Positions 52,092 through 57,135 of a stretch of 64,000 nucleotides of DNA are shown here, piece after piece. The DNA lies in the NCBI RefSeq assembly GCF_038396675.1, contig NC_088931.1:16394501-16458500 (forward strand), read 5' to 3'. Origin of the DNA: Hydra vulgaris. Lineage: Eukaryota > Cnidaria > Hydrozoa > Anthoathecata > Hydridae. The notes below the pieces were generated by a model. That model saw only the letters and a list, made by a program, of their open reading frames with translations, searched no databases and was not told the DNA's origin. The position numbers and the translations under genes were made by a program. The number at the start of each line of letters is the position of its first letter. Position 1 is the first letter of the stretch.

Positions 52092-52449
52092 CAGGGGCGG
52101 ATCTAGCATTTTAAATGGGTGATGCGAAATTTTTTTATTGACGTCCCCCCCCCCGCAACTTCTCTAGGGTTTAAGTATAGTCAATATAAAAAGTGGAGAA
52201 ACATTAAAAGGCGTAGCGAGGGTGGGGCGGACACGCCCCAGGCAGCTTTTTTTACGAGTGGCGTCGCTGTTTATATCATTGAATAATAACTAAATTTTGT
52301 ATTGCTTTTGCAGTATCCATTTTTAGCAGAAATTTTTACAAATGTTGCCTTGGCTATTTTGTTCATAAATTAGACATGTAATTTTAAGCCTAATTTACTT
52401 AACAAAGTGCACCAACGAGAAGGTAAGCCATAGGACTTTGCACTTCATC

Positions 52450-52685
52450 TGTATACTGTCATTTTGCCCAAGGTTAGCCCTCCATTTCTGGATTCTTTCC
52501 TTTTCTTGAGAGGCACGTAGTGTAAAGTAATGTTGCCTAAGATTGGCCCTCCACTTCTGGATTCTTTCCTTTTCTTGATAGGCACGTCATGTAAAGTAAT
52601 GTTGCCTAAGGTTAGCCCTCCATTTCTGGATTCTTTCCTTTTCTTGATAGGCACGTCACGTAAAGTAATATTAGGTTATTTATTA
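52450..52685. repeat. 69-bp minisatellite, three copies plus partials
   Basis: GCCCTCCATTTCTGGATTC recurs at 52477, 52546 and 52615 (period 69), with partial copies near 52735 and 52814. The period is a multiple of three, so a frame stays open on the minus strand, but it resembles no protein. Confidence 0.9.
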
Positions 52686-52916
52686 AGGTTAAGTAATATT
52701 AGGTTAAGTAACTAGAAATATAATAATAAAGGTTAGTCCTCCATTTCTGGATTTTATCTTTATTTTATTTTATATTATTAATCTTATATTATATTATATT
52801 ATTAATCTTGCCTAAGGTTAGCCCTCCATATCTGGATTCTTTTTTTTTTAATTTTAAACTGTTTTTTGTTATAATAATTTTTGTTATATTTTTTTATTGA
52901 AGTTCTATATTTTAAA

Positions 52917-53090
52917 TATATATATATATATATATATATATATATATATATATATATATATATATATTTATATATATATATATATTTATATATATATATA
53001 TATATATATATATACATATACATACATACACACACACACACACACACACACACACACACACACACACACACACACACACACACACACACA
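52917..53090. repeat. (AT)n followed by (CA)n microsatellite
   Basis: AT repeat to about 53012, ACATACAT transition, then CA repeat to 53090, downstream of the OTU-hAT stop codon. Confidence 0.95.
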
Positions 53091-53141
53091 ATATTAGTAA
53101 AAATCAAATTAGAAAAAAGTAAAATAAAAGTTAGTACACTA

Positions 53142-56100
53142 CTAAATAAAAGCTAAGTCTAAACGTCTTACACCTGACTTTGAAAAAATGTCAATGACTC
53201 TTTCAACATCTGGAAAAATTTCTTGATGTATGGACATTAATGCTAAAGAGTTAAAGCGAGACTCAATCATATTACTTCTGGAGTATGTTTTTAGCCTACG
53301 TATAACTGAAATACTTCTTTCACATTCACAAGTTGTTATTGGAATTGTTCCTAAAATTATAAATGCTGTCCTTATATTTGGAAAACCTCTCATGTCAATG
53401 GACTTTAAAGTACCAGCAACAGTTGAAGGAATATTTAACTGGTTTTTCCAAAATAATTCCCATAAATCTAACTCAGCATGTATTGAAGTAAAATGAGGCA
53501 TATCAGATGAATAGAAATTTAAAAATTCATAAAAATCAGATTTCCATGGTTTTTTAACTTGTATTCTGGATAGTACAGTTGAAGGAACTGCTGCTAGACC
53601 TTTATAAACAAACATGCCATTTTCTGGAAACCTATTATCTAGCTCATTAATAAGATGTTCAATTAATGGAGAAGTAATGCTATGTTTAAAATAGTCACAA
53701 ACTGTATTTGTTGGATAATTATCCCGGTAAACCTGGACATTACACAATCTAGGTCTCACTTCTTGTATATCAAGAGTTTTGGCCAAACTAAGAGCGATAG
53801 CGTACCATTCAGTGTGATATATATCAATTTTATTTTTAATTTCTAATAACAGATTTTTTAGATTAGTTATTTCAAAACACTGCTGGGATATGTCAAAAGA
53901 TTTAGTTTGAAGAGTTACAGTAATTGCATAAAAAAAATCCATTAATTGTTTTGTAATAACTAAACTTACAATAAAAGAGTAATCTGTTAATAATCTTAAA
54001 AAAGAAGAGGATTTGGAAGCAGTTTCACTGTTATATTCCTTTGACTCATTTAACCCCATCTCCTCTAAAGCATGAATAATAGGTATAAAACTATCAAAAA
54101 AAACATCAACACCTCTCAGCTTTTGAACCCATCTTGTTCGACAAGTATCTATTATCTTTTCTTGATTTGGACTTAAATACTTTTTGAGACAGTTACTACG
54201 TTTAGGAGATAAGTTAAAAAAATAAGAAATTTCTTTTACTTGGCCAAGAAGATTTTTTACTTTTTGAACTTGGCATGCAGCTGCTACTACTAAACTAAGT
54301 CTATGGCTTGCACAATGAACAAATATAGCTTTATGATTAAGAACTTTTATTCGAGAAGCAACTCCTTTATACTCACCTGCCATACAACCCGCACCGTCAT
54401 ACCCTTGGCCTCTACAATTTTGAATATTAAGTCCAAACTCTTGAAGTGCATTAAGTACATTTAGAGATAGACTAAGACCAGATGTACCAGTCTTGCAATC
54501 AATAAATCTTAAGAAATCCTCGCAAATCTCATTATTTGAATTTACATATCTTAAAACAAGTGACATTTGTTCAGTATTTGAACAGTCAACTGCTTCATCA
54601 CAAAGAATTGAAAAAAAAATTGAATGCTTGACATTTTTTATTAAAACTTCCTCAATCGCTTTCCCACAAGAATCAATAAGTTGGTTTTGGGTAGTTTTTG
54701 ATATATAGGTTGCATTTTTTGGACTTGAAGAAAGATGATTAGCTAATATTTGATCACCAGCATCAACACGAAAATTTAAAAGCTCTATGAAGTTACCAAC
54801 TCCAACTTTTTGTGTAGAAGATTCCCCAATATCAGGATGATATTTGCTATCATCACGATGTCCACGAAATGCTAGATCGTTTCTACCAAGAAATATTATT
54901 GTTTTAATTATTGGAACTAATTTTTTTCGGTTATCAGAAAGAAGTTTCAAACAAGAATTATTTAAATCAACCTCAATAACATTACTTTTGGAATTGCAAC
55001 GTGAAAGCAATGCATTAAATGAAAGCATAGATTTTTCATGTAAAACACAATTTTCCTCATGCTTTCTATAATCACGAACAGCATTACCCCACTCTTGATG
55101 GGGCTTGAAAACTAAATTTAATACTCCAGACTTATTTGGAATACTAGCACCTAGCAAAGTACAAGGAAGACAGTAAGCTCCATCTTCTTTGCTAGAATAA
55201 GCTAACCAAGAAAACTGGCTGAGCCATTCAAATTTAAATGATCTTTTTGTATTAAAAGATATTGGAAAAACAAACATAGAATTAGGACAAAATACTTTGT
55301 TTACCATATCTAACAAATAAGAATCATCTTTGCCAGCGATTAAAAGTTTACCTCGAACAAGATATGTTGAAACATCATACAAAGAATTTAATTCATTATA
55401 TGAAGGAATAATAACTGAGTTGGAGTCTAATGACTTAACTATTTTTGAATCTACAGAAGGTTCAAAAGGCAACTCTATGAAAGCATTGTCTTTTTTAAAG
55501 TTAATTTTAGATTGAATTTTGACATGTTTTGCAGAATCAAGTTTTTTTTTTTTATTTGTTTCAGTTTGAGGACTAAAAAAGTGTAAAGGATAAGTAGCAT
55601 CGTTTTTTATAGCCAAATTCTTATTATTGCTAGAAATTAGTTTAGGCTTTTTAATAATTGGTACAAAATGGTTCGGTGTCCAGTTATTATTTTGCATCAC
55701 TGACATAATATCAGTATTACACCATAAAATATTTAAAACATTTTGATCTTGATTTTTAATTGAACGAAATGGAAAAATAAGTGTATTAAAAAGTTTTTTG
55801 AATTTTTCTAAGCCAAAATCAGGATAAATTGATCTAATAGGAATATTTAAAACTGATGACAAAGCAATTAGACATAAAAATGAAGAAAACTTGTTAGCTC
55901 GGCAGTTGATCAATGCTTCCATTATTATAATTTCAGAAGCTGATTCACTGTTAATTAATTTAAATTGATCTGAACATTCAAAAGAAACACAGGCTACTAG
56001 AACACTGGAAAGATTAGAAAAATTATTGTTTTCAACCTGTTTAACAAAAAGGGAGTACCTCGCATAGTAGGAAACTTTTTCAAACAATTCAATCGAAGTT

Positions 56101-56481
56101 AGAAGCCTCAATACATTAACTGTCTTCAGAGACGAATTGCTTAAAAGAGAAGCTGAACTGTAGAGGCAATTTCCATCTTCAGATGACCTTAAATAAAATA
56201 AAAAGTATACTAAAACAAGCTCAGTTTATATTAAATACTAGCTGAAAATATAAAATACCATTAACTTTAATAATAGGGTTTTACCTTAAAGCAACATAAT
56301 CTTTAGTATCTTCTTGCTTTGGTATAAAACGATCCATTTCAGTATTTTCAGAAGCCTGACTATGTGGCTGAACTGGACTCTTATTATTTAAAACTTTCAA
56401 TTCTTCAGTCAACTGGTTTTTATATTTGCGAATATTTGGCAAATGTCTAGCCTTAATTGCATTTGAGACTAAAAAATTCAT
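53142..56481 (-). CDS. OTU-domain / hAT transposase fusion, 1080 residues, spliced
   Basis: Complement of join(53142-56187, 56285-56481). Exon 1 (65 codons plus 2 nt) starts MNFLVSNAIKARHLPN; donor TTTAAG|GTAAAA, 97-bp intron, acceptor TTTAAG|GTCATC. Residues about 67-241 look like an OTU cysteine protease: SSEDGNCLYSS (Asp70, Cys73) and NNWTPNHFVPI (His239). A TTF-type zinc-finger region follows at about 395-450 (YCLPC; CVLH). Then DUF4371 (NDLAFRGHRDD) and the hAT core: ILCDEAVD (Asp596), GYDGAGCMAG (Asp663), HCASHRL and CECERSISVIRRLK (Glu1022, dimerisation region). No lesion was seen. The transposase should cut and paste the element; what the OTU part does (ubiquitin cleavage or another role) is unknown. 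Confidence 0.82.
56188..56284 (-). other. Intron of OTU-hAT gene
   Basis: 97-bp GT-AG intron. Removing it keeps the frame (3046 + 197 nt = 1081 codons), which supports the exon model. Confidence 0.8.
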
Positions 56482-56581
56482 TTTTTTTTAACTTTAGTTT
56501 ACAAGCAAAGTCCAACGACGAAAATTACGAGCGAAGAACGTTTATAAGGTGGCATATCAGAATTTTGTAAAATTTGAACGA

Positions 56582-56900
56582 TTTGGAGCAACTGATGCAA
56601 TTGTTCTAAACTTTCTACAAATTTGATTGGTTATAAATAACATTTCTTATCTTTTTTGTAAAGTTTTTTGCGGAAGTTTTGTAGCAACTGATGCAATTGT
56701 TATTTTATTAAATAGTGATTGGTTTAAACTGTTTTTTAACCAATCATTAATGATTTAGAGTACAATTGCATCAGTTGCTACAAAGTGATCGGAAAAATAT
56801 GTGAAAAAGTACAAATATGATTGGTTAAAACGTACTTTTTTTTTTTTAAACCAATCGCATTTGTATTTAATGAAGAACAATTGCATCAGTTGCTCCAAAA
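56582..56900. repeat. Nested fold-back upstream of the OTU-hAT start codon
   Basis: GCAACTGATGCAATTGT occurs at about 56589 and 56684, and its complement at about 56763 and 56879. The outer pair extends to GGAGCAACTG and CAGTTGCTCC. It could be a MITE or hold transposase-binding or promoter sites. Confidence 0.85.
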
Positions 56901-57135
56901 CGCAGGAATTTTGTATAAGTAACGCATAAGTAACTATAGAGATAAAATAAAATCGAGTTTAAATGAATTTTTTTCGAGTTAAAAACAAGTATTTTATTTT
57001 TTGTGAATACCAGATTCCAATTTCTACTTTTACTTTTTATTAAGAAAAAAAAGTGAAAAAGAGATACACTTAAATTTAGCGTTGAAAAAAGGCTGATGCA
57101 TGCGCATCATTCGCGACACCCTGGATCCGCCCCTG

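Follow-up and report, generated by a model that had tools for sequence, protein, structure and literature searches.

A hAT5-type transposon of Hydra vulgaris with a probable OTU-fold domain ahead of its transposase

We analyzed a window of 64,000 nucleotides from the genome of Hydra vulgaris (assembly GCF_038396675.1, contig NC_088931.1, positions 16,394,501 to 16,458,500), which contains a hAT-type DNA transposon of 5,044 bp. Positions below are those of this window. Overall, we think it rather likely that this is a young, coding-intact element of the hAT5 type, that its protein combines an OTU-fold peptidase with a hAT transposase, and that deubiquitination by the peptidase part favors transposition. 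The parts of this proposal are not equally firm, so we give our confidence in each where its evidence is discussed.

An OTU-like domain and a hAT transposase in one protein

An earlier note on this DNA had proposed an intact element with a spliced frame of 1,080 codons, and the frame holds up: on the minus strand, the two exons (Table 1) join into 1,080 codons plus a stop without interruption, no lesion is visible, and the DGNC and NHF motifs lie at residues 70–73 and 238–240. The single protein would start with an OTU-fold cysteine peptidase and end with a hAT transposase of the DUF4371 type; between them lie first a variable linker and then a zinc-finger-like region. (We call the latter zinc-finger-like because of a CxxC motif and by comparison with PMC3985635; no Pfam family matches it.) Because the DGNC segment and the transposase lie in the same exon, the OTU and hAT parts are joined whether or not the intron is spliced. 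As read by eye, two further subfamilies, L004/L026/L029 and L009, splice at this position and in this phase with different intron sequences, and the protein sequence of exon 1 is conserved among the sibling subfamilies. In the L009 subfamily, the intron upstream of exon 2 is about 1.1 kb rather than 97 bp and, again by eye, seems to contain inverted repeats.

The transposase had been recognized correctly. In exon 2 of the window's protein, both DUF4371 (1.5e-22; 81.1 bits, cut-off 32.1) and Dimer_Tnp_hAT (3e-05; 24.2 bits, cut-off 21.4) score above the Pfam cut-offs, and the same two families match in three further subfamilies. Four acidic residues (Asp531, Asp598, Glu906, and Glu911 in exon 2 numbering) are invariant across four subfamilies, and these may include the DDE triad. 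Judging from its dimerization region and RNase H-like transposase part, the element is a member of the hAT superfamily. A search of the PDB with a profile of the whole protein gave no hits.

We are fairly confident that the N-terminal region has the OTU fold, because of profile matches, a profile-profile comparison with controls, and a weak structure model for which every listed match has an OTU fold. The Pfam OTU profile matches five of the seven subfamily versions, one of which exceeds the curated cut-off (L032, with 23.6 bits vs. 23.3). The window copy by itself scores under the cut-off, so the profile search that the earlier note had proposed supports OTU for the family and not for this copy alone. 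When we compared the domain to ten other OTUs of the genome with hhalign, the score was 39.3, while 100 shuffles reached at most 19.8; this alignment covers the Cys side only. The predicted structure of the N-terminal domain is of low confidence, yet all 50 of the 50 structure entries among the matches listed are OTU enzymes. No PHROGs family matched the OTU part, and two scans of viral contigs found no relatives.

The fusion is found across the family. We searched a genome of 911,502,276 bases in 15 contigs, which gave 52 matches for exon 2 (45 candidates scored), 58 for the L032 protein, and 154 for the OTU part alone (150 candidates scored). Several of the exon 2 matches are colinear over the full exon, including the OTU part, at 42–62% identity, and there are closer copies besides. 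With these colinear relatives, the fusion is more than chance. Indeed, the order OTU then hAT is common to all seven subfamily representatives: besides the window copy, L004, L009, L032, and L041 run to the end of the transposase, L031 is spread over three open frames, and L042 extends to residue 738, as far as the sequence covered.

Selection appears to have kept the OTU part and to have kept the adjoining linker much less. This is suggested by the Nei-Gojobori ratio of nonsynonymous to synonymous differences (pN/pS), which is lower in the OTU part (0.36–0.62) than in the linker (0.72–1.17), with 0.41–0.74 in the zinc-finger-like region and 0.29–0.55 in the hAT part (four subfamilies compared in six pairs; with synonymous differences close to saturation, the ranking alone carries meaning). 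A tree built from 7 OTU parts and one built from 6 hAT parts have the same deep split, with a support of 100 in each. The trees differ within both halves: L032 groups with L031 in one (79) and with L041 in the other (91). L009 is also placed differently in the two trees, on weak support values of 81 and 50.

The genome search also returned other OTU matches. Two open frames, of 1,883 and 2,290 residues, had the look of domain swaps, but they read through stretches of N and we rejected them. The strongest OTU matches in the genome (L047–L049, L052, L055, and L056) are presumably Ginger1-like. Three of these (L048, L049, and L052) have a WDGPYEV stretch ahead of the OTU domain, as expected of Ginger1 elements (PMC2836005).

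What the OTU-like domain might do

The earlier note had listed Asp70, Cys73, and His239 as OTU signature residues. Two of these stand: Cys73 and His239 are invariant in the seven representatives, as are Asn238 and Pro242 (alignment columns C8, H174, N173, and P177, respectively). Asp70 does not seem to be required, as the position is Asp in the window copy and L009, Asn in L004, Thr in L032 and L031, and Ser in L041 and L042. Beside this variable position, no other candidate for a third catalytic residue is evident in the seven-representative alignment. In a larger alignment of 34 rows, 30 have a letter at the Cys position and 29 of these show the Cys, all but the decayed copy L007; the His is present in 29 of 34. 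Four copies (L006, L012, L028, and L030) carry another residue in place of the His; the fifth row, L031, is out of register in this merge and has the His in the seven-representative alignment. L006 still has an open frame across the whole of exon 2.

By analogy with OTU cysteine peptidases, we infer that Cys73 and His239 have a catalytic role, and we put the chance that the OTU part is an active enzyme at about even. If it is active, it would use these two residues to remove ubiquitin, or else a ubiquitin-like protein, in cis or close by. The most likely effect would be to keep the transposase or the transpososome from being degraded and so to favor transposition; we consider such protection possible but somewhat doubtful. 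The earlier note had also raised a modification of chromatin proteins as a role that the domain could have. More broadly, the element may manage the ubiquitin system of its host.

Alternatively, the OTU fold could have been kept without catalysis, as a ubiquitin-binding or protein-docking part that would bring the transposase to ubiquitinated chromatin or to repair complexes. The replacement of Asp70 in five of the seven representatives, the want of an evident third catalytic residue, and the copies without the His, one of them open over all of exon 2, are what one would expect of such a domain. It is harder to see why the Cys and the His would then be invariant in seven representatives with OTU parts that are 34–58% identical to the window's, and we think this alternative unlikely. 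Some viral OTU-fold proteases process themselves, so the OTU part might instead cut in the linker and release the transposase. Although the linker is long and variable, hardly any of its columns is conserved across four subfamilies (there is one Asp, D234, between P177 and V273 in exon 2 numbering), hence we see no conserved cut site, and self-processing seems very improbable. Finally, we give hardly any credence to an unrelated N-terminal domain of a transposase with DGNC by chance: the single-sequence scores are weak and the structure model is of low confidence, but independent subfamilies, the profile-profile controls, and all 50 of the listed structure entries point to OTU.

We return to the reading that the OTU part is a deubiquitinase acting for its transposase. 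Because the element is coding-intact, young, and simple, with one protein and short ends, its need for a deubiquitinase of its own could be tested directly by changing a single residue.

Target-site duplications, mobility, and the ends of the element

The element is of the hAT5 type by the length of the target-site duplications in its family. Among the 12 coding copies (those with both ends among loci L001–L038), nine have exact 5-bp duplications, as do all four deletion derivatives that we picked from the genome matches, or 13 of 16 together. Two of the nine (L007 and L036) sit in simple repeats. As for the other coding copies, L006 has a duplication of 6 bp, L035 has none, and the window copy, which is inserted inside an AT microsatellite, has no exact duplication but matches at 4 of 5 positions (ataca/atata). 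None of the 12 copies has an exact 8-bp duplication. This does not exclude membership in the hAT superfamily, because the superfamily takes in groups with duplications of 5, 6, and 7 bp (PMC12730594). As hAT families with 5-bp duplications are named hAT5 (Kapitonov and Jurka 2007, cited in PMC12730594), the 5-bp duplications of the siblings and derivatives make this a hAT5-type element and not a usual 8-bp hAT.

The element is young and its family has been mobile recently, so at the level of the family the evidence supports the suggestion of present or recent activity. One other copy (L008/L014) shows 9 mismatches to the window copy on one side, over an alignment of 4,034 bases (99.75% identity); an overlapping stretch that includes simple repeats has 48 mismatches and 59 gap positions in 4,076. 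The frame of this copy is broken near residue 590. The four deletion derivatives (L070–L073, of 1,137, 1,129, 2,184, and 1,484 bp) have kept both ends. Two of them, L070 and L071, have one identical deletion at different insertion sites, so this deleted form probably moved in trans.

The ends of the element had been placed correctly: CAGGGGCGGATC begins at its first base, the inverted copy ends at its last, and these terminal inverted repeats are preserved. Near the right end, the GGAGCAACTGATGCAATTGTT motif was seen, among the loci compared, only in the subfamily of the window copy. The left 38-bp repeat is present in the window copy, L004, L006, L009, L010, L022, L026, and others, with 0 of 38 mismatches between subfamilies with proteins that are only 56–62% identical to the window's. 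This could reflect constraint, homogenization, or elements trading end modules. We abandoned the idea of a special link between these repeats and this transposase, as their 31-bp core is widespread (258 exact genome matches, with about 100 places listed) and occurs in another repeat family as well. Four extra loci that we picked (L066–L069) belong to that family and do not have the element's termini in the 2.8–3.0 kb examined. They carry the 38-bp repeats in arrays with a period of 76. The repeat is at least 2.6 kb long, L066 and L067 are 98% identical, and L066, L067, and L069 have a stop-free frame of 346–371 residues, which in L067 has no significant Pfam family.

Elsewhere in the window, a lone CTGGGGCGGATCC stretch that resembles the terminus of the element lies at 20825; with up to two mismatches allowed, its only partners in the window are the ends of the element. 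Also, a reverse-transcriptase frame adjoins the element (58372–59346, plus strand; RVT_1, 1.4e-33).

Table 1. Features of the element and its flanks, in window positions
Feature	Position	Strand	Basis or remark
Whole hAT-type element, 5,044 bp	52092..57135		Inverted repeats at both ends; blastn of siblings
Left terminal inverted repeat, CAGGGGCGGATC	52092..52103	+	Common to siblings
Right terminal inverted repeat, inverse of CAGGGGCGGATC	57124..57135	-	Ends at 57135
Left flank ataca, possible degenerate 5-bp target duplication	52087..52091		4/5 match to right flank
Right flank atata	57136..57140		
Left subterminal 38-bp repeats, 5 copies, the first three at period 69	52470..52851		
AT/AC microsatellite within element	52917..53090		
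Right-end motif GGAGCAACTGATGCAATTGTT, 2 direct and 2 inverted copies	56585..56896		
Exon 1, ATG at 56481, residues 1 to about 66	56285..56481	-	Protein conserved in sibling subfamilies
GT-AG intron, 97 bp	56188..56284	-	By eye, two further subfamilies share position and phase
Exon 2: OTU-like domain, linker, zinc-finger-like region, hAT transposase, stop	53142..56187	-	
OTU-like domain, about residues 66-245 (Cys73, His239)	55650..56187	-	
Weakly conserved linker, about residues 246-350	55335..55649	-	
Zinc-finger-like region and hAT transposase part (DUF4371, hAT dimerization)	53142..55334	-	

Comparison with known transposons

Like the DUF4371-type hAT transposases (PMC3985635, PMC3942097), the transposase of the element has a DUF4371 RNase H-like part and a C-terminal hAT dimerization region; unlike here, the extra domains that those descriptions name are zinc fingers (TTF, THAP, and FCS), not OTU. 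With the hAT5 group (PMC12730594) the element shares a hAT-type transposase, short terminal inverted repeats, and 5-bp duplications. hATx-6 (PMC8721813) is also a hAT element from Hydra, but it has a BED finger, 674 residues, and 8-bp duplications, and the word OTU is absent from the main text of its description. Our literature search, which went by titles and the openings of abstracts and did not reach Repbase Reports or most subscription papers, found no OTU domain reported for a hAT element.

The OTU-hAT fusion may be a new combination. OTU domains in transposons are already known from Ginger1 (PMC2836005) and Helitron (PMC9741609) elements. Ginger1 is a DNA transposon with an OTU domain and was described from Hydra, among others. 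However, it has a Gypsy-integrase-type transposase and its OTU domain is C-terminal, while the present element has a hAT transposase and an N-terminal OTU (PMC2836005). Helitrons and Helentrons with OTU or VTD domains are likewise selfish elements with a deubiquitinase-class domain, but they are rolling-circle elements with a Rep-helicase (PMC9741609). The VTD domains of Helitrons are active in vitro, and the same paper states that the OTU domains of transposons had not been assayed. Of the published suggestions that we saw, those nearest to ours are, for Ginger1, that the ubiquitin pathway takes part in transposition and repair (PMC2836005), and for Helitron VTD domains, that they stop the degradation of proteins needed for transposition (PMC9741609).

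We can imagine, although we lean slightly against it, that there is a long-lived hAT5 clade with a standing, catalytic N-terminal OTU deubiquitinase that was gained separately from the C-terminal OTU found in Ginger1 and the one found in Helitrons. If so, animal DNA transposons would repeatedly need to control the host's ubiquitin system, and OTU domains would be found in three kinds of these with different machinery: Ginger1, Helitrons, and hAT5-type elements.
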